NCBI GenBank assembly: GCA_946566685.1
Contig: CAMNXA010000017.1
Coordinates: forward strand, 1 to 61,579
From: an uncultured Lachnospiraceae bacterium
GTDB lineage: Bacteria > Bacillota > Clostridia > Lachnospirales > Lachnospiraceae
Direction: 5' to 3'
DNA length: 61,579 bases
Position 1 is the first letter of the stretch; each line of letters begins with the position of its first letter. Position numbers and translations under genes: made by a program. Below are positions 3,550-61,579 of this stretch, piece by piece. The notes beneath the pieces were generated by a model that saw nothing but the letters and a program-made list of their open reading frames with translations, ran no database searches and was not told where the DNA came from.

Positions 3550-4665
3550 ATGCAGTATCTGAAGGGAGCGGACATTTCCACCATCAAAGAGGTGGAGGAA
3601 CTGGGCGGCAGGTTTTATGATCAGGGTGTTGAGAAGGATGTATTTGTCATATTGAAGGATTACGGTTTCAATGCGGTACGCCTCAGACTGTGGAATGATC
3701 CCTATTCGGAGGGTGGCAGACCATATGGGGCAGGCACCAATGACCTGCCCACAACCATAGAACTTTCACGCAGGGCGCGCTCCCATGATATGGAAGTGCT
3801 GCTGGATATTCAGTACAGTGATTTCTGGGCGGATCCGGGAAAACAGCGTGTGCCCAAGGCCTGGCGGGGTATGGATGCGAAACAGCTGGAGCAGGCGGTC
3901 TTTACCTTTACGAGGGATACCCTGCTGTCGATGAAAGAGGCAGGGGCGTTCCCTACGATGATTCAAGTGGGAAATGAACTGACCAATGGTATGTTATGGC
4001 CTTTGGGGAAGCTGCCGAACTACGATAATCTGGCTCGCTTTATCAATGCGGGCATCCGCGGGGTGCGGGCGGTGGATCAGGATGTGCCGGTCATGCTGCA
4101 TCTGGACAATGGCGGCAACAATGCAATGTACCGGGATTGGTTTGACCATTATCTGGAAAAGGGAGAAGAGTTCCAGATCATTGGGCTTTCGTACTATCCT
4201 TTCTGGCATGGGTCTCTGGATGATTTACAGTATAATATGAATGACCTGGCGCGGCGTTATGGCAAAGAATTGATGGTGGTTGAGGTGTCCATGGGTTTCA
4301 CCATGGAAGACTATGCGGCTTATGAGAAACTGCAACCAGGAGAGAGAAAAGGGTATGCTACCAGACAGGAACTGGTGGAGAAGATTCCCTTCGACATGAG
4401 CAGGGAGGGGCAGTGCGAGTTTATGCGGGCATTGCTCCAGGTGATAGAACAGGTGCCGGAACATAAGGGAAGAGGATTTTTTTACTGGGAACCGGCATGG
4501 ATTCCGGTGCCGGGTTCCGGCTGGGCCAACGAAGAGGCACTGATATATATAGAAGAAAAAGGGCCCGGCGGCAATGAGTGGGCCAACCAGGCGCTGTTTG
4601 ATTATGATGGAAATGCGCTGCCCGCGCTTAAAGTAATTCGGGACTATCAGCCGAAGGAAGATTAA
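3550..4665 (+). CDS. Arabinogalactan endo-beta-1,4-galactanase (GH53), intracellular
   Basis: A 371-residue enzyme carrying the GH53 signature: KGADIST at the N terminus, NAVRLRLWNDPY, TTIELSRRARSHDMEVLLD and YSDFWADPGKQRVPKAW. Such enzymes cut beta-1,4-galactan side chains of pectin. The acid/base Glu is E143 (QVGNEL) and the nucleophile Glu is E245 (VVEVSMG), both present. Unlike most GH53 enzymes it has no signal peptide, so it should act on imported galacto-oligosaccharides in the cytosol. The ribosome site AAGGAG precedes the ATG. It is the last gene of the 1486 operon and is followed by a tandem repeat in place of an obvious terminator. Confidence 0.92.
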   Translation: MQYLKGADISTIKEVEELGGRFYDQGVEKDVFVILKDYGFNAVRLRLWNDPYSEGGRPYGAGTNDLPTTIELSRRARSHDMEVLLDIQYSDFWADPGKQRVPKAWRGMDAKQLEQAVFTFTRDTLLSMKEAGAFPTMIQVGNELTNGMLWPLGKLPNYDNLARFINAGIRGVRAVDQDVPVMLHLDNGGNNAMYRDWFDHYLEKGEEFQIIGLSYYPFWHGSLDDLQYNMNDLARRYGKELMVVEVSMGFTMEDYAAYEKLQPGERKGYATRQELVEKIPFDMSREGQCEFMRALLQVIEQVPEHKGRGFFYWEPAWIPVPGSGWANEEALIYIEEKGPGGNEWANQALFDYDGNALPALKVIRDYQPKED

Positions 4666-4754
4666 GCCGGCCAGGCAGAAGCTTATGAGCGGACGAAAGG
4701 TTATAGCCGGCCAGGCAGAAGCTTATGACCGGACGAAAGGTTATAGCCGGCCAG
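4665..4754. repeat. 40-bp tandem direct repeat, 2.25 copies
   Basis: Two units of 40 bp (4665-4704 and 4705-4744) differ at one base (GAGC against GACC), and a third unit breaks off after 10 bases (AGCCGGCCAG). The first base of unit 1 is the last base of the GH53 stop codon and the partial copy ends just before the lacI stop, so the array fills the gap between two convergent genes. Each unit contains the GGCCAGGCAGAAGC core. No protein is encoded. Confidence 0.85.
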
Positions 4755-7744: not shown

Positions 7745-7798
7745 TAGAAACAACAGTTGACTTTTGATTATAAAGTCGGAAAGAGAGAGGAAAAGATT

Positions 7799-9163
7799 AT
7801 GAAGAAGAAAGTATTGGCAACATTACTGGCAACAGCATTGGCAGCCAGCTGTCTTGCAGGCTGTGGCGGATCTGGCGATGCAGCACAGACACCGGCAGCA
7901 GATGCACCGGCAGCAGAGACACCTGCGGCAGATGCACCGGCAGCAGATGCACCTGAAGCAGAAGCACCCGCGGCAGAAGCGCCTGCGGCAGATGCAGCAG
8001 CAGATCCGATCGCAAACCTGATCGCAGCTACAACTGACACCGTAACTTTAAAGGTATGGGCATCTGAGGAAGATCAGGATCTCACAACAAAACTGCTTGA
8101 TGAGTTCAAGGCAGCTTATCCGGACGTGACTTTTGATATCACACTCGGTGCAGAATCTGAGTCCACAGCAAAAGATACAATCCTTACAGACGTAGAGGCA
8201 GCAGCAGATGTGTTCGCATTTGCGGATGACCAGATCAACGAGTTGGTAAAGGCTGGCGCATTGCAGGAAGTAGTTGCAAATTACACCTATGATGTGGCAA
8301 ACGATAACGTAAGCGGCGCCGTTGAAGCGGCTACCATCGATGGAAAATTGTATGCATATCCGATGACAGCTGATAACGGTTATTTCATGTTCTATGACTC
8401 TTCCGTATTCTCCGAGAGCGATGTACAGTCCTTAGAGAAGATGGTTGAAGTTGCGCAGGCAGCTAACAAGAAGATTGCAATGGATATCTCCAATGGCTGG
8501 TATATTTATGCATTCTTCCAGGGTGCAGGCCTTGACCTGAAACTGAATGATGACGGCCTTACCAATACCTGTACATGGAACGCAGCAGGCGGTACAGATG
8601 TGGCACAGGCAATCCTTGATCTGACAGCATCTAACGTATTGGTAGATATGGGTGATGAGGATATGGCTACCCAGATCGCAGAGGGTAATGTGGTTGCATG
8701 TGTAAATGGTACCTGGAGAGCAGAGACAGCAGCAGAAGCATGGGGAGACAACTATGCGGCTACCAAGCTTCCTACGTTCAAGGCAGGCGGCAAAGACTGC
8801 CAGATGTCTTCTTACTCCGGTTACAAGCTGATCGGTGTAAATCCTCACTCCGCTAACATCGGTTGGGCAATGCTCCTTGCAGAGTATCTGACCAGCGAGG
8901 CAGCACAGACAGCAAGATTTGAAGCAAGAGGCCTTGGCCCTGCAAACGTTGCGGCAGCATCTTCACCGGCAGTTCAGGCAAATCCTGCTATCGCAGCACT
9001 GGCAGCACAGGCAGCATACGCAACACCTCAGCGTGTAGGCGGCAACTTCTGGTCTCCTGCTGAGACATTAGGACAGATTCTTGCATCTGGTAATCCGGAC
9101 GGAACAGACCTTCAGGAACTGTTGGATACCACAGTTGAGGGTATTACGGCTCCTGTCGAATAA
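7799..9163 (+). CDS. Maltodextrin-type ABC transporter, substrate-binding lipoprotein
   Basis: A 454-residue extracellular solute-binding protein (family 1). A lipoprotein signal peptide ends at the lipobox LAGC (C22), anchoring it to the outer face of the membrane. Residues 23-70 are a low-complexity Ala/Pro/Glu/Asp linker. The binding domain begins at about residue 80 with TVTLKVWASEED and contains YAYPMTADNGYFMFYDSS and VACVNGTWRAE blocks typical of maltose-binding homologues. The start is the ATG with GAGAGG upstream; the frame also runs open for 14 codons before it. Two permeases follow. No ATPase gene is linked, so a shared MsmX-type ATPase encoded elsewhere is likely. Confidence 0.92.
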   Translation: MKKKVLATLLATALAASCLAGCGGSGDAAQTPAADAPAAETPAADAPAADAPEAEAPAAEAPAADAAADPIANLIAATTDTVTLKVWASEEDQDLTTKLLDEFKAAYPDVTFDITLGAESESTAKDTILTDVEAAADVFAFADDQINELVKAGALQEVVANYTYDVANDNVSGAVEAATIDGKLYAYPMTADNGYFMFYDSSVFSESDVQSLEKMVEVAQAANKKIAMDISNGWYIYAFFQGAGLDLKLNDDGLTNTCTWNAAGGTDVAQAILDLTASNVLVDMGDEDMATQIAEGNVVACVNGTWRAETAAEAWGDNYAATKLPTFKAGGKDCQMSSYSGYKLIGVNPHSANIGWAMLLAEYLTSEAAQTARFEARGLGPANVAAASSPAVQANPAIAALAAQAAYATPQRVGGNFWSPAETLGQILASGNPDGTDLQELLDTTVEGITAPVE

Positions 9164-9167
9164 AAAA

Positions 9168-9216
9168 GTAAATTTGCTTCGCAAATTAACTTTACGAGAT
9201 CCGCTTCGCGGACTCG
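9168..9216 (+). repeat. Palindromic repeat element A (two hairpins)
   Basis: Hairpin 1 is AATTTGC-TTC-GCAAATT and hairpin 2 is CGAG(A)TCCGC-TTC-GCGGACTCG. It begins 5 bp after the binding-protein stop codon. It matches the reverse complement of element B at 17527-17578, with paired changes in the stem (TGC/GCA here, TCC/GGA there). See the repeat-family finding. Confidence 0.75.
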
Positions 9217-9259
9217 GCATTAGGAATGTGGGAAAAGTTTTAAAGTAATAAGGAAAACG

Positions 9260-14991: not shown

Positions 14992-15037
14992 AATTCTTCG
15001 GAATTGCTATTGCTGACTTGATTTCCGCGATCAAGTC
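14992..15037. repeat. Two-hairpin element resembling the palindromic repeat family
   Basis: Hairpin 1 is AATTC-TTCG-GAATT (14992-15005) and hairpin 2 is GACTTGAT-TTCCGCG-ATCAAGTC (15015-15037). The first hairpin matches hairpin 1 of the repeat family apart from one lost base pair, and the second has the same place but a different stem. It may be a diverged copy. Confidence 0.45.
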
Positions 15038-15175: not shown

Positions 15176-17431
15176 CTAGCGATTTAAGAAATCCCTCTGA
15201 TTTTGTAACTCTTCCGGTACGGGTGTATTTGTATTTTTCAGCTTCTGGAAGAGGTTGTTATAATGGTGTATCTTCTGGCTGAGTTTGATATCATAACGAT
15301 CCATCATTTCCTTATACAGCGGGTTTGCTTTGAGCCTGTTACGGATTTCCTTGGCAAACGGACAGTAAGTGAAGAGGATTGTGCGGGATACCTTATTCAG
15401 GCGGGGCGAGCCGGAACCTTCATAGAGGATCCAGGCTTCATAATCCCTGATGAACATTTCTTTATAACTGTTCTTTGCTTTCTGCATACTGAGCTTGATC
15501 TTATCCTTGGCATCTGCCGACAGATCCCGGTTCTTTTTGTAGAACTGGATGTAATCGAAGTATTCGCTGGTGAGGGACGCTTCGGATACATCGTTCCAGC
15601 GGGCGCCCTGCACACGTTTGCACATTTCCCAACGGAAATCGCCGGTCAGGCGGACTAAGATATTGGTCAGATCTTCCATCTGGAAGATGGATACCATCAT
15701 ACGGGCCGGGGTGGTACGTTTGCGGCCTTCAATTTCCTGCCATGCAACGCCGCGGATTCCCACATTGGGCATCAGGATCAGATCCGGCAGTACCTCTACA
15801 CCCACAGACTCCTTACCGATACCGATGTCCGGATTGGTATAGATGATGTCGCGGTAGTAAGCACTGAAGTCCAGGGAACGTATCATCTTAAAGGCATCTT
15901 CGACCTTATCTGCGGAGACCAGGGAAACATCCAGGTCTTTTAAGATATTGTGTTCCGAGAAGATAGGGCAGAAATTGATAATACGGCCAAAGGTAATCTT
16001 GTTGACGGTGGGGAACATATTGTTCATCTCGAACAGTACCTGTTTCTCCCTGTTGTTCTGCCATTCGATTTCCTGGGCGGCAGTGATCTTACCAGTCATC
16101 TTCTGCTCATGCAGATAAGCGATATAATCGGCATCAAATTCGTTGCGGCTGGGTGCCTTTTCACCATTGTAAATAGCTTTGAGCCATTCGTAAATGGTGT
16201 AGACTTTCCGCTTGGGATCTGTGGGAAGTCTATCTACAATGGAGTACAGGTAGGAAGCATTCTCCATGCCTGCCAGGTTTTCGTCCACATAGCCAAAGTT
16301 GAAGAACATTTTCACAACTTTGGGGATGGCATTGTCATTTAGACTCTTTAAGAAAGCGCCCTCATAAATCTGATAGAACAGCTTGGTGATCGTGAGACGC
16401 AGTTTTCTTGCGGCGTCATCAGAAGCGTTCTTGTCAGTCATCTTGGCATATTTTTCAACATTTGCCCGGAAAGCGGTGGCGGTTTCGCTGCTGACACCGG
16501 AGTAGGCGAGGATTGTATTCATGGAATCTGTGATTTCCGGTACTTCATCCGTCTTGGTATCCTCATCACCGGAGGAAGTGCTTACCTTGTTGAGTTTCTC
16601 ACGGTATTCAGCCACGCGCTGCTTGTACATGTCCTTGTCGATTGAGGGCTGGCTCTCAAGCTGGATCATCATGGTAGATAATGCCGCAATGATCGTGGTG
16701 GAATTCTCGGCATTGGGGCCGATCTTATAGAGAATGCCTGCATATAAATCAAAGAAATCCAGATGATTTTCATTCATCAGGAGGTTGGTAATCTCCGATT
16801 TGTAATCATATAGTACACGGCAGATAGAGATAATATTGTAGATATCCTGATCTACCTTTAAGATTAAGCCGGTCATAAAGTCGGGATCCAGGTTTTTGGC
16901 AGTTTTTTCTGTCACCAGCGTGCCCAGCTGGGTGTAGAAGCCGTCAATCCAGCTGTCCACATCTTCTTCGAGGACCAGCTGAGTCAATGTCTCCATAGCC
17001 GGCAGTTCCCTTGCGGCAAAGCCAAGTTTTGTACAAAAGGACTTATAATCTTCATAGCTGTCCATCAGGTAATGGTAGAAATTATTACAGTCAAAATGGC
17101 TCAGTTCATACTGGTCAAGAATTTCATGAAGCTGCTTGAACAAAGACGTGATAAGGAAATTTGACAGTTCCTTGTTACTTTTCATAAAACTGGATAATTG
17201 TGCGGCAGAACAGGGATAAGAAGCAAATGAAGTGGCTTCCTCTGCCTGGTAAGAGATGAAATAGGATCCGAAAAAAAGTTCGCAGATGCCCACAACATCA
17301 CCTTTTCCCAGATAAAATTCGCCGCCTGGATAGGTGGCGCGCACGCTCCCCTTAGCGATTACATGTAAGGCGGTGAGATTTTGACCACTCTGGATCAACT
17401 GCGTCCCCGCCGGAAATTCTTTTACAGCCAT
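15176..17431 (-). CDS. Large protein with N-terminal cyclic-nucleotide-binding-like domain
   Basis: A 751-residue cytosolic protein. Residues 5-115 look like a cNMP-binding beta roll (PAGTQLIQSGQNLTALHVIAKGSVRATYPGGEFYLGKGDVVGICELFF). The phosphate-cassette Arg/Ala are not obvious, so ligand binding may be lost. The remaining 630 residues have no motif I know; they are mostly helical with a later VLPDLILMPNVGIRGVAWQEIEGRKRTTPARM segment. There is no HTH, so it is not a CRP-type regulator. The start is the ATG preceded by GGGGAGG; the frame runs open for 59 more codons upstream, but those lie in the palindromic repeat. It is monocistronic. Confidence 0.65.
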   Translation of the reverse strand: MAVKEFPAGTQLIQSGQNLTALHVIAKGSVRATYPGGEFYLGKGDVVGICELFFGSYFISYQAEEATSFASYPCSAAQLSSFMKSNKELSNFLITSLFKQLHEILDQYELSHFDCNNFYHYLMDSYEDYKSFCTKLGFAARELPAMETLTQLVLEEDVDSWIDGFYTQLGTLVTEKTAKNLDPDFMTGLILKVDQDIYNIISICRVLYDYKSEITNLLMNENHLDFFDLYAGILYKIGPNAENSTTIIAALSTMMIQLESQPSIDKDMYKQRVAEYREKLNKVSTSSGDEDTKTDEVPEITDSMNTILAYSGVSSETATAFRANVEKYAKMTDKNASDDAARKLRLTITKLFYQIYEGAFLKSLNDNAIPKVVKMFFNFGYVDENLAGMENASYLYSIVDRLPTDPKRKVYTIYEWLKAIYNGEKAPSRNEFDADYIAYLHEQKMTGKITAAQEIEWQNNREKQVLFEMNNMFPTVNKITFGRIINFCPIFSEHNILKDLDVSLVSADKVEDAFKMIRSLDFSAYYRDIIYTNPDIGIGKESVGVEVLPDLILMPNVGIRGVAWQEIEGRKRTTPARMMVSIFQMEDLTNILVRLTGDFRWEMCKRVQGARWNDVSEASLTSEYFDYIQFYKKNRDLSADAKDKIKLSMQKAKNSYKEMFIRDYEAWILYEGSGSPRLNKVSRTILFTYCPFAKEIRNRLKANPLYKEMMDRYDIKLSQKIHHYNNLFQKLKNTNTPVPEELQNQRDFLNR

Positions 17432-17494
17432 GATAATACCTCCCCTGTGATTTAGTACAAACTGATTCTGTCGGAATTCCAAAGAAAAACTTAT

Positions 17495-17578
17495 TTGTTC
17501 CGAAGGAACACAACTAAAATTGGATTGCGAGGTCCGCGAAGCGGAACTCGCAGAGTTAATTCCGAAGGAATTTACTCT
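17495..17578. repeat. Palindromic repeat element B (three hairpins)
   Basis: A small hairpin TTGTTCC-GAA-GGAACACAA (17495-17513) is followed by GCGAG(G)TCCGC-GAA-GCGGAACTCGC (17527-17551) and GAGTTAATTCC-GAA-GGAATTTACTC (17553-17577). It lies in the 385-bp gap between divergent genes, in the leader of the leftward 751-residue protein. It is inverted relative to element A. Confidence 0.75.
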
Positions 17579-17701
17579 TATTATATGACGATGGCCTCCA
17601 AAATACAAGAATATAGAAAATAGAAAAGCGGGAGATGGATTTTAGCAAAATGCACAAGAAGATAAAAAGTTTTTTGTGCTGTACTTTTAAAAAATTTGTG
17701 C

Positions 17702-17725: not shown

Positions 17726-17756
17726 GAAAAAGTAAATGATGAGAAAATTTGTTTTT

Positions 17757-17779
17757 CGGGTTCCGCTTTGCGGATCCCG
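17757..17779 (+). repeat. Palindromic repeat element E (single hairpin)
   Basis: CGGG(T)TCCGC-TTT-GCGGATCCCG, the hairpin-2 half of the repeat family alone, 38 bp before the start codon of the next gene and within its likely 5' leader. Confidence 0.6.
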
Positions 17780-17816
17780 TATTATATGAGATTCAGGAAG
17801 AAAGGCAGCAGAAGTT

Positions 17817-26057: not shown

Positions 26058-26103
26058 TTGACCATAGTATAATTTTATATTATTATAAAATTATACTATG
26101 GTC
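26058..26103 (+). promoter_or_regulatory. padR promoter embedded in a perfect 20-bp palindrome
   Basis: TTGACC (26058-26063), 17-bp spacer, TATTAT (26081-26086). The inverted repeat has arms 26060-26079 and 26084-26103 with a 4-bp centre (TTAT), every base paired. It spans most of the -35 box, the spacer and the whole -10 box. A dimeric regulator bound here would exclude RNA polymerase. The gene 48 bp downstream encodes a PadR-type regulator, so auto-repression is the simplest reading. Confidence 0.75.
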
Positions 26104-26150
26104 ATGTTTTTCAGATGAAAAGATATATAGATAGAAACGGAGGCAGAAGA

Positions 26151-26699
26151 ATGTCTTTAGCGTTTGGCATTTTAGGATTTTTAAATTATAAGCCCATGAG
26201 CGGCTATGATCTGGTGAAAGCCTTTGACTCGTCTGTGGAGTTTTTCTGGCATGCCCAGAACAGTCATATTTATCTGGAATTAAAGAAGCTGGAGAAGCAG
26301 GGTTATATCAGCGGCGAGACTGTGATGCAGGAGGATCGTCCTAATAAAAGGATATATTCCATTACGGAAAGCGGCCGGGAAAAGTTTTTGGATTGGCTTG
26401 CCAAAGGCGAGGGGGAAGATGCTTTACATTTTAAAAGCGCCTTCCTGATGAAGGTATTTTTTAGCGGAAATATGCCGCCGGCGCAAAGCGCTGCCATGTT
26501 ACGGCAGTTTAAGGTACAGTGCGAATCTTATCTTAGGAAGATGGAGGCGATACCGGAAAGTATCGATAGTTATGGTTCGGACAAAGAGGCTTACCAGACG
26601 ATGTACTGGCAGTTCACGGCTGATTTTGGCCGCAGACTGATTGAGACCTTCATCGCCTGGGCAGGACAGTGCATTGAAACATTGGAAGCGATATCGTGA
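26151..26699 (+). CDS. PadR-family transcriptional regulator
   Basis: A 182-residue protein with the PadR winged helix at residues 1-85 (MSLAFGILGFLNYKPMSGYDLVKAF, SHIYLELKKLEKQGYISGE, YSITESGREKFLDWL) and the C-terminal Vir-type helical domain of the longer PadR class. These repressors respond to phenolic acids or drugs. The start at 26151 has GGAGG seven bases upstream; an ATG 12 codons earlier lacks one. It is preceded by a palindromic promoter and followed by a hairpin terminator, so it is monocistronic. Confidence 0.9.
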   Translation: MSLAFGILGFLNYKPMSGYDLVKAFDSSVEFFWHAQNSHIYLELKKLEKQGYISGETVMQEDRPNKRIYSITESGREKFLDWLAKGEGEDALHFKSAFLMKVFFSGNMPPAQSAAMLRQFKVQCESYLRKMEAIPESIDSYGSDKEAYQTMYWQFTADFGRRLIETFIAWAGQCIETLEAIS

Positions 26700-26702
26700 A
26701 GT

Positions 26703-26732
26703 AAGGTTAATTCCGAAGGAATTTACCTTTTT
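26703..26732 (+). terminator. Terminator of padR, made from repeat element D
   Basis: AAGG(T)TAATTCC-GAA-GGAATTTACCTT plus a TTT tail begins 4 bp after the padR stop codon. The core is identical to hairpin 1 of element B. A copy of the repeat family has thus become, or supplied, a terminator. Confidence 0.7.
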
Positions 26733-32567: not shown

Positions 32568-32591
32568 ATAGAAAATTTAACAAGTTAAACC

Positions 32592-32863
32592 GTTGAAGCG
32601 GAGATAACGGTGGTTATGCCTTTACAGAGAGCCTGTGATGCTGAGAGACAGGCAAGAAACAAGTCATCAAATGGACCGCTGAGGGTGCAGTCAAATGCGC
32701 GTAGCGCAAAGTATTCTGCAACGTGTGGGCATACGTCAGTTGCCGGGGATATGTTGGTATCCTGCTAAGTGCACGGAGCAATCCGTGAATCAAGGTGGCA
32801 CCGCGGATAAAGTCTGTTATTCGTCCTTGACAAAACACAGTTTTTGTCAGGGGCGTTTTTTTG
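32592..32863 (+). promoter_or_regulatory. T-box leader with Trp specifier, controlling the trp operon
   Basis: The T-box sequence AAGGTGGCACCGCG is at 32792-32805. Stem I is closed by AGCGG (near 32597) pairing with CCGCT (32676-32680). The specifier codon TGG (32672-32674), read just before that 3' arm, matches tRNA-Trp. A terminator follows at 32822-32863: CGTCCTTGACAAAA pairs with TTTTTGTCAGGGGCG and a run of seven T. Uncharged tRNA-Trp should stabilise the antiterminator and allow transcription of trpE-A. The AGATA loop-E-like bulge after AGCGG also fits. Confidence 0.92.
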
Positions 32864-41877: not shown

Positions 41878-41964
41878 TTCATAAAACCACAGACAGGAAG
41901 CAGGAGATGCGAATAGACGGATTTCCTGCTCCTTTTTATGTGATAGGAAAGTTCTGCCGCTAAT

Positions 41965-42008
41965 CCGAGGCCGCGAAGCGGATCTCGTAATCGAACTCTG
42001 CTCGATTC
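41965..42008. repeat. Palindromic repeat element F
   Basis: CCGAGGCCGC-GAA-GCGGATCTCG is hairpin 2 of the family and is followed by AATCGA-N7-TCGATT in the place of hairpin 1. It has the same orientation as element B. It lies in the 261-bp gap between the GH120 gene and the ABC operon; that gap also holds the promoter listed next. Confidence 0.65.
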
Positions 42009-42049
42009 AGGTAAGATTTTTATAGAATCGTGACAGATTATTAAATGGA

Positions 42050-50467: not shown

Positions 50468-50490
50468 GGGAGAAGTAGGTAAATATTATT

Positions 50491-50541
50491 TCGAGTTCGC
50501 GGAGCGAAACTCGAGGAGTTAATTCCATAGGAATTTACTCC
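50491..50541. repeat. Palindromic repeat element C (two hairpins)
   Basis: TCGAGTTCGC-GGA-GCGAAACTCGA then GGAGTTAATTCC-ATA-GGAATTTACTCC, same orientation as element B. The first stem differs from B at several places but stays paired. It ends 15 bp before the Uma2 start codon, so it could also hide or expose the ribosome site. Confidence 0.75.
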
Positions 50542-50556
50542 GGGGGTAGAGAGAAG

Positions 50557-51090
50557 ATGAATGAAAAGGTTGGAAGTGACTGCACAGTCAGGGATATCGA
50601 GGCGCTGCCGGCAGGACAGCGGGCAGAACTAATTGACGGGCAGATATATATGATGGCGAGCCCGGAACGTATACACCAGCAGATTCTTGGGAAATTATAC
50701 AGAATCATTGCTGACTATATTGATGAAAAAGGTGGCGGCTGTGAAATAAACTTGGCGCCTCTGGCTGTGTATATCAATGATGATGAGCGTAATTACGTGG
50801 AGCCGGATATCTTTATCGTGTGTGACCAGAACAAATTGGATACAAAGGGCTGTCATGGCGCTCCTGACTGGATCATAGAGATTCTGTCACCGACCAGTGA
50901 GAAGATGGATCGGAAAATTAAGTTATTTAAATATCGGACAGCAGGTGTGCGGGAGTATTGGATTGTTGATCCGGGCCAGGGGATTGTCGAGGTATATGAT
51001 TTTGAGAAAGGACTGGAAGAGAAGTATTCTTTCCGGGAACATGTGCCAGTGGGGATTTATGGAGGGCTTGAAATAGTTTTAGATGTCTGA
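50557..51090 (+). CDS. Uma2-family PD-(D/E)XK endonuclease
   Basis: A 177-residue protein of the Uma2/DUF820 family. Visible features are RAELIDGQIYMMASPERIHQ at the N terminus, the nuclease residues D84 (YVEPDIF) and E108 (PDWIIEILSP), and KLFKYRTAGVREYWIVDP. Such proteins are common in cyanobacteria and scattered Firmicutes, often in multiple copies; most have no assigned role. It is alone, with GGGGGTAGAGAG before the ATG, behind a structured leader. Confidence 0.88.
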   Translation: MNEKVGSDCTVRDIEALPAGQRAELIDGQIYMMASPERIHQQILGKLYRIIADYIDEKGGGCEINLAPLAVYINDDERNYVEPDIFIVCDQNKLDTKGCHGAPDWIIEILSPTSEKMDRKIKLFKYRTAGVREYWIVDPGQGIVEVYDFEKGLEEKYSFREHVPVGIYGGLEIVLDV

Positions 51091-58821: not shown

Positions 58822-58894
58822 GGGGTCTTAGCTCAGCTGGGAGAGCATCTGCCTTACAAGCAGAGGGTCATAGGTTCGAGCCCTATAGGCCCCA
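58822..58894 (+). tRNA. tRNA-Val (anticodon TAC)
   Basis: A 73-nt cloverleaf with acceptor GGGGTCT/AGGCCCC, D arm GCTCAGCTGGGAGAGC, anticodon arm TCTGC-CTTACAA-GCAGA with TAC, and T loop TTCGAGC. Discriminator A; the 3' CCA is not encoded. Confidence 0.96.
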
Positions 58895-58909
58895 TTCAAT
58901 ATCATATAT

Positions 58910-58983
58910 GGCGAGATAGCTCAGCTGGCTAGAGCATACGGTTCATACCCGTAGTGTCGAGGGTTCAAGTCCCCCTCTCGCTA
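58910..58983 (+). tRNA. tRNA-Met (anticodon CAT, probably elongator)
   Basis: A 74-nt cloverleaf: acceptor GGCGAGA/TCTCGCT with a G-U first pair, anticodon arm TACGG-TTCATAC-CCGTA, T loop TTCAAGT. The initiator features (unpaired base 1 and three G-C pairs at the anticodon stem base) are missing, so elongator Met is favoured; tRNA-Ile with modified CAT cannot be fully excluded. CCA is not encoded. Confidence 0.92.
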
Positions 58984-61379: not shown

Positions 61380-61579
61380 ATGGACAATGATTACAACCAG
61401 CAGACGAATGTAAATTCCGATCAGCAGGGGAATTTTTCACAGCAGGGTAATGCTTATCCGCAAGGAAATTTTTATCAACAGGGTAATGGCTATCAACAGG
61501 GCAATACCTACCAACAGGGGAATAGCTATCAACAGGGGAACGCATACCAGCAGGGAAATGGCTATCAACAGGGGAACGC
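61380..61579 (+). CDS. Gln/Asn/Gly-rich repeat protein, 3' end beyond the window
   Basis: The gene starts MDNDYNQQTNVNSDQQGN behind GGAGGAAAAA and runs to the window edge, giving 66 full codons. After residue 12 it consists of a hexapeptide (F/Y)xQQGN(x) repeated with an 18-bp period, most copies reading YQQGN(G/T/S/A). Such low-complexity N termini in Lachnospiraceae often precede a zinc ribbon or membrane domain, but that part is not in view. No function assigned. Confidence 0.75.
   Translation, partial: MDNDYNQQTNVNSDQQGNFSQQGNAYPQGNFYQQGNGYQQGNTYQQGNSYQQGNAYQQGNGYQQGN
61432..61579 (+). repeat. 18-bp tandem repeat coding YQQGN
   Basis: At least seven near-identical units of TATCAACAGGGGAA(C/T)G followed by a variable triplet. 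Differences fall mostly at third positions, so selection on the peptide is likely. The array continues past the window end. Confidence 0.85.

Follow-up and report, generated by a model that had tools for sequence, protein, structure and literature searches.

The window, 61,579 nucleotides long, is the entire contig C17 of assembly G000 (3.9 Mb, 115 contigs). It carries copies of a repeat family of about 50–100 bases that is modular, apparently without coding function and built of short hairpins designated B, A and C. The copy under study, at 17526–17578, is neighboured by a gene on the minus strand (15176–17431) that encodes a 751-aa protein with a weak cyclic-nucleotide-binding match. A search with this protein scored 7994 candidates and yielded 624 relatives, most of them unnamed and some named as Lachnospiraceae. 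A covariance model of the two-hairpin unit (R1) was built from 17 B-A copies; 19 copies were aligned, and L007 and L009 were omitted because of indels in B. The elements of the window are as follows.

9165–9216, minus strand: B-A copy (R1 match, E 1.2e-13)
17494–17513, plus strand: short A-like hairpin TTTGTTCCGAAGGAACACAA, absent from the R1 matches
17526–17552, plus strand: hairpin B of the copy under study, TGCGAGGTCCGC-GAA-GCGGAACTCGCA
17552–17578, plus strand: hairpin A of the copy under study, outer arm AGA/TCT, AGAGTTAATTCC-GAA-GGAATTTACTCT
17757–17779, minus strand: single B-like hairpin from a pattern search, absent from the R1 matches (DNA fold z -4.8)
26703–26729, plus strand: hairpin A alone, arm AAGG/CCTT (R1 match 26695–26729, E 1.8e-6)
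41895–41934, plus strand: terminator-like hairpin followed by a T tract, immediately preceding the element at 41943
41943–41965, plus strand: left module ATAGGAAAGTTCTGCCGCTAATC
41966–42007, plus strand: hairpin B, then the third hairpin type, C (AATCGAACTCTGCTCGATT) (R1 match, E 7.8e-5)
50491–50541, plus strand: B-A copy, arm GGA/TCC (R1 match 50492–50541, E 5.5e-15)

The R1 match to the copy under study covers 17528–17578 (E 3.7e-15). Hairpin B of the three B-A copies in the window has the core pattern CGAG..CCGC-GAA-GCGG..CTCG and is followed by A in the form arm-GTTAATTCC-GAA-GGAATTTAC-arm. Folding as single-stranded DNA, compared with shuffles, gave z-scores of -6.7 (17526–17580), -5.1 (9163–9218), -5.9 (50490–50543), -3.95 (26700–26732) and -4.8 (17755–17781); the fold of 41964–42009 is weak (z -1.6, equalled by 13 of 200 shuffles). 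The sequence-only reading had described six or seven copies, on both strands, with two hairpins in fixed order. Five of its copies are confirmed, here with the limits 9165–9216, 17526–17578, 26703–26729, 41943–42007 and 50491–50541; the membership of 17757–17779 is doubtful, and 14992–15037 does not belong: its hairpins (z -4.25) differ and R1 did not match it. Both orientations do occur, minus at 9165–9216 and plus at 17526–17578 and 50491–50541. The order B then A holds in two-hairpin copies, but 26703–26729 is A alone and 41943–42007 is B then C. The A-like hairpin at 17494–17513 is possibly a decayed upstream unit. The hairpin at 26703–26729 starts three bases past a gene end, and the copy at 50491–50541 lies upstream of the gene at 50557.

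In the 3.9-Mb genome of G000, R1 matched 147 times at E ≤ 1, and 131 of these matches pass E ≤ 0.01. The first pass scored 150 of 1418 candidates, so that 147 may be low, and some matches are inner units of arrays. The interspersed family is thus real and larger than the count in 61 kb had implied, with some 130 or more units genome-wide. Placement only between genes, as first claimed, is largely borne out: 140 of the 147 matches are intergenic (≤15 nt overlap with called genes) in regions that are 84% coding, as judged with our own simple gene caller on 91 fetched regions around the matches (587 kb, including the window). Where both neighbours were called (131 matches), the copy runs against both in 45 cases, with both in 39, between convergent genes in 27 and between divergent genes in 20. 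When three mismatches were allowed, the 21-base A core matched the genome 25 times, compared with none for the reversed control. The set contains 100 classified cores, 81 of them distinct, and a single 50-base B-A core is identical at six loci. A pattern search of the fetched regions left 135 B modules from 259 matches after removal of reverse-strand readings and other loops; 72 are followed by A, 36 by C and 27 by neither. Many of these 27 sit inside arrays, and at least two of the 135 (C8:84004 and C17:14122) look like chance.

The fullest form of the element consists of a left module, GGTATAGGAAAGTCCTCCGCTTATC, then B, then A, C or C-then-A, and finally a T tract. The left module, which by eye could form a small AGGA-AAG-TCCT hairpin, is present with 35 of the 135 B modules and missing from 100. 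Hairpin C follows the pattern AATCGAG-n-CTCGATT. The outer arms of 68 A hairpins are AAA/TTT in 50, AAG/CTT in 5, GGC/GCC, GAA/TTC and GGA/TCC in 2 each, AAC/GTT and AGA/TCT in 1 each, and imperfect in 5. T tracts follow A in many copies; the copies with GGC/GCC arms have none. Tandem arrays contain inner units with just the 5' half of A, the complete A being found in the last unit, and B is repeated at C12:56427–56586, C59:750–926, C20:37424–37629, C79 and C9:24340. At C33:23813 the number of units is two in G000 and G062 and one in G061. Since orthologous junctions differ between species as B-C versus B-A, and likewise as B-C-A versus B-A, the forms B-A and B-C may have arisen by deletion from a longer one.

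A longer element sharing the left end was also sought. The left-end pattern gave 27 places (13 for the control), nine of them beyond the known copies; three of the nine (L296, L303 and L307) resemble 3'-truncated copies, and the remaining six have no hairpin B within 126 bases, so this candidate was rejected. In one case (L154, C19:28241–28290 of G000) a B-A copy sits within the loop of a second A hairpin and is flanked on each side by GCGAAG, which suggests that one copy inserted into another. Two copies, L057 in G002 and L058 in G022, lie right at gene ends; in L058 a TAA within hairpin A appears by eye to be the stop codon of the neighbouring gene.

Among the genomes searched, the repeat family is nearly restricted to one genus. 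In a search of 61 genomes with R1 (E ≤ 0.01), 33 of 37 same-genus genomes, G000 included, and 2 of 24 genomes from other families of the order gave matches. A matching same-genus genome contained 1 to 100 matches, and no more than 98 candidates were scored in any one genome; G004, G008, G024 and G029 gave no match. Across 250 genomes of the taxonomic family (E ≤ 1e-4), both same-genus genomes and 1 of 248 from other genera matched. The covariance model thus returned further copies in the genome and in its relatives alike. Judged by RecD2, the nearest records with a name are assemblies of uncultured Lachnospiraceae and, going by these named relatives, the host genus likely belongs to Lachnospiraceae; the project names Mgla and Lapin among the records are presumably bank vole and rabbit. 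In a literature search with most subscription journals outside its scope, no title dealt with such repeats in Lachnospiraceae.

Insertions of the family differ between close species. The copy upstream of recD2 (C72:8533) is present in G000 and missing from G062, G061 and G028, all three of which retain a terminator-like hairpin, GGACTGCTTTG..AGGCAGTCC, at the site. R1 found no copy at 80 recD2 loci of named records; the 18 of these that were viewed have none either, and most have a terminator by eye, L209 being one without. Similarly, none of the 11 relatives displayed (of 19) has a copy at C8:90040, and the C33:15833 copy is missing in G062 and G061. The reverse is found at two junctions where G000 is empty: L132, with a copy in G002 and G016, and L151, with a copy in G002. 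Empty sites, which the sequence-only reading had proposed to look for in sister strains, are thus found among close species in both directions. At C9:49675, B-A is missing in the nine relatives aligned, and the left-module-like TATGATATAGGAAA occurs also in G028, there without hairpins; part of the left module may therefore be target sequence at this site. At C46, the copies in G000 and G028 lie on opposite strands behind the T tract of apparently the same bidirectional terminator, and at L131 the orientation is likewise opposite in G000 and a relative, which suggests separate insertions in each. Several sites are common to the closest relatives, such as C10:72873, identical in three genomes, and activity may accordingly be low.

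Copies prefer the 3' side of predicted terminators. A terminator-like hairpin with a T tract lies within 18 nt before 15 of the 35 left-module copies, on the same strand; the same test was passed by 85 of 3000 points placed at random between genes and, among 525 intergenic TTTAT sites lying apart from copies, by 39 (Fisher 3.8e-14 and 6.5e-8 respectively). One of the 15 (C4:121183) is at a gene end. No terminator was detected for 20 of the 35; two further copies, C33:4575 and C12:33299, seem by eye to have long-loop terminators and were left out of the 15. In four of the 35, what precedes is another copy or unit. Group IIC introns insert just 3' of intrinsic terminator hairpins. The likeness to them is confined to target choice, the elements described here being just about 50–100 bp long.

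A TTTAT flank accompanies part of the copies. TTTAT ends the left flank in 11 of 35 copies and occurs within 24 nt of the right flank in 30 of 100, compared with 1–8 of about 100 further out, although the right-flank count partly reflects the element's own T tract. TATAGG is weakly enriched at the right boundary (14 of 100 versus 1–4 of about 100 further out). The sequence GGTATAGGAAA is found on both sides of the copies C72:8533 and C33:15833; at the latter site, relatives have a similar native motif in one occurrence. A target-site duplication was sought at recD2, C33:15833, C8:90040, C9:49675 and C33:4575, and no exact or consistent one was found; nor do the copies have a clean boundary. 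In comparison with MITEs, the aligned sites have no exact duplication; inverted end repeats were looked for by eye only.

Paired changes that keep the stems had been claimed from the window copies. With a structure set by eye, the 17 training copies have changes on both sides in 10 of 20 pairs. The claim was then borne out in 79 distinct copies from relatives, outside the training set, although chosen for their high match scores: of 1537 cells, 96.4% are paired, and both sides have changed in 17 of the 20 pairs, a level reached in none of 500 shuffles. Both-side changes amount to 218 cells, compared with 59 in shuffles and 15–62 in slid controls, and one-side changes to 26; the changes in the stems are thus compensatory. 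Orthologous copies behave in the same way. In 16 comparisons at nine sites, six from one site and three from another and therefore non-independent, 37 both-side changes were counted, against a single one-side change and 12 cells in which one species has a broken pair. One A of another stem length was skipped, and in one B an extra base was left out; the L146 site has one aligned flank, and the L061/L073 site was read by eye from the sequence. Window copies take part in this turnover: the ortholog of the 9165–9216 copy in G001 (L349) has two paired changes in B, and the ortholog of the copy under study in G028 (L324) has the A arm GGA/TCC.

GAA is the predominant loop, that of 109 of 133 B hairpins, for which the pattern admitted seven loop types, and of 52 of 68 A hairpins; the inverted loop TTC is found in two of the 68. 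Among the 74 copies for which letters are available at this position, the closing C-G pair of A is invariant. Triloops of the C-GNA-G type have been described as DNA mini-hairpins that are extraordinarily stable and resist nucleases (PMC4686876). Instantaneous paired changes and, rarely, loop inversions are attributed in the literature to template switching from one hairpin arm to the other (PMC8794818).

The tally of one-side to both-side changes was dropped as a sign of DNA folding, since the recD2 terminators, whose alignment goes by loop distance alone, have a similar one (40:268, compared with 26:218 and 1:37 in the elements). With this tally alike in both, only the share of G-T pairs speaks for DNA. 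It is 26 of 1481 standard pairs in the relatives' copies and 6 of 674 in the inner stems of G000, which also hold 20 other mismatches, compared with 103 of 718 in the recD2 terminators (65 of the 80, found with G-U allowed). The low share is partly ascertainment, through the choice of high-scoring matches and the use of Watson–Crick-like patterns. The B stems of G000 contain 5 T.G and 12 C.A among 266, which are equally visible to the pattern, and with Watson–Crick-only scoring the ratio of G.T to A.C is 20:11 in the elements and 51:11 or 58:19 in the terminators. This strict wobble test is suggestive only. Folding of the stems as DNA is therefore favoured, not conclusively, by the low G-T share together with the C(GAA)G triloops.

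The reading preferred here is that these modular intergenic repeats, with their preference for the 3' side of terminators, spread and keep their stems as folded single-stranded DNA hairpins, by way of an enzyme predicted to lie outside the Y1/RAYT class. Its probability is put at roughly 0.45. Insertion would use stretches of single-stranded DNA that become accessible behind a terminator hairpin or a T tract, and the C(GAA)G triloop hairpins would be what the enzyme or the replication machinery sees. Template switching from arm to arm during replication would change both arms together and so account for outer arms that vary yet match, as well as for the few inverted loops. Transcription of neighbouring genes may be affected. 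A bolder form of the same reading would make the family a new mode of mobility, in which strings of ultra-stable C(GNA)G DNA mini-hairpins would be inserted single-stranded into DNA opened behind intrinsic terminators by non-Y1 machinery and arm-templating would turn over the stem alphabets species by species at orthologous sites. This extension is doubtful.

The hairpins might instead be kept for an RNA function, as mRNA 3' ends or processing signals under ordinary compensatory evolution. Copies immediately behind stop codons or terminator-like hairpins, the resemblance of A plus T tract to a terminator in many copies, the persistence of orthologous copies with paired changes and the similar change tally of native terminators (40:268) would all be expected on this account. 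It is nevertheless unlikely, given the absence of a strand preference among the 131 matches (45, 39, 27 and 20), a G-T share below that of the recD2 terminators, the lack of a copy at any of the 80 recD2 loci and the lack of a T tract behind the GGC/GCC arms.

Bacteria commonly carry short hairpin repeats; for several such families, as for the BOX elements, we know of no mover. By analogy, the present family appears to work like the BOX and bcr repeats, which are its closest kinds. BOX elements of Streptococcus pneumoniae are outlined as small interspersed composites of modules, predicted to fold, with the middle boxB in variable tandem number, and are inferred to have spread as a mobile element (PMC3049150). 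The family described here is likewise a modular composite, with a variable tandem number of B. It differs from BOX in its mini-hairpin modules of 20–27 bases with mostly C(GAA)G triloops, the likeness being one of description; in addition, its left-module copies often stand in one orientation behind terminator-like hairpins. The bcr repeats of the Bacillus cereus group are similarly presented as group-restricted and as having a TTTAT motif (PMC6542083). They measure 100–400 bp, and bcr1 is present in tens of copies per genome, 39 on average and up to 130 (PMC6542083). In contrast to bcr, the TTTAT flank is found in part of the copies here, and modular hairpins and arrays dominate; this comparison, too, is by description.

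Movement by bcr-like, double-stranded or circle-mediated recombination at TTTAT or TATAGG, with the hairpins as passengers, is a second alternative. The TTTAT-rich ends, GGTATAGGAAA on either side of C72:8533 and C33:15833, and the head-to-tail arrays with differing unit number at C33:23813 are in keeping with it, and a site-specific recombination-like mechanism has been proposed for the TTTAT-bearing bcr elements (PMC6542083). An exact duplication was, however, found at none of the sites examined, and the pairing of the stems is too well kept for passengers. This alternative is rather improbable.

The sequence-only reading had compared the family with REP/RAYT systems. The comparison holds for the interspersed repeats, the insertions that differ between species and the paired stems, but not for the mechanism. 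REP repeats are characterized, in the sources at hand, as high-copy imperfect intergenic palindromes with complementary stem changes and with stems that vary by species (PMC2817692, PMC3733652). Repeats with GTAG or CGTC are assigned there to other phyla (PMC2817692, PMC3733652), and neither Clostridi- nor Firmicutes occurs in the main text of PMC3733652. In the present family, none of 135 B and 68 A hairpins has a GTAG, GTGG, GGAG or CGTC head on either strand, and no Y1 gene is flanked by copies among the 30 tested: at 30 of the 40 Y1 matches listed, R1 found no copy (best E 0.26). A Y1 transposase (Y1_Tnp, PF01797) was looked for as suggested, and no match was found in G000, which is 94.8% complete. 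Y1 is present in 15 of 41 genomes of the genus. Among the ten genomes with at least 20 R1 matches it is missing in seven, including G000, and present in three, and the numbers of R1 and Y1 matches are uncorrelated (Spearman -0.02, 37 genomes). On the four tests of absence, correlation, copies at Y1 loci and head, a Y1/RAYT mover was judged unlikely, and despite its REP-like upkeep of palindromes the family does not belong to REP/RAYT. No mover enzyme was found, Y1 being the sole class looked for.

Metagenome assembly can lose IS genes that are present in multiple copies. A Y1 transposase of the RAYT or IS200/IS605 type, now lost or missed in assembly, might thus have moved REP-type palindromes here, and the mismatched or bulged palindromes, the lack of a clean duplication, an AT-rich motif on one side and the Y1 genes of three of the ten element-rich genomes would be compatible with this. 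It is very unlikely in view of the absence of Y1 from G000 and six other element-rich genomes, the lack of correlation, the 30 Y1 loci without an element and the missing head tetranucleotide. As a separate observation, G023 (6.1 Mb, same genus) has the most Y1 matches (16) yet four hairpin elements.

That the copies are look-alike ordinary intrinsic terminators, as hairpin plus T tract might suggest, is hardly credible: two or three hairpins follow one another in a fixed order, identical cores recur at different loci, some arms lack a T tract, copies stand behind terminator-like hairpins already present, and the family is nearly confined to one genus.

Across dozens of related genomes, orthologous sites of the family are filled, empty or filled in the opposite orientation; the preference for the 3' side of terminator-like hairpins is measurable, and the paired stem changes come with few wobble pairs. 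The family can therefore be used to ask if selection acts on DNA hairpins or on RNA, and if target DNA becomes accessible to insertion when transcription terminates.

Other features of the window are set apart from the family. An Rfam search of the whole window at gathering score gave no family for the repeats and reported just a T-box leader (RF00230) at 32584–32831 and two tRNA genes within 58822–58983. A perfect, AT-rich 21-base inverted repeat with a 4-base loop, unlike the hairpin family, lies at 26059–26104 in the gap preceding a PadR-type gene at 26115. At 4665–4744, a 40-base unit is present in two tandem copies (98% identical) right behind a gene end. Tandem units of 15 bases are found at 7865–7999, within the solute-binding-protein ORF at 7757, and units of 18 bases at 61413–61576, at the contig end.
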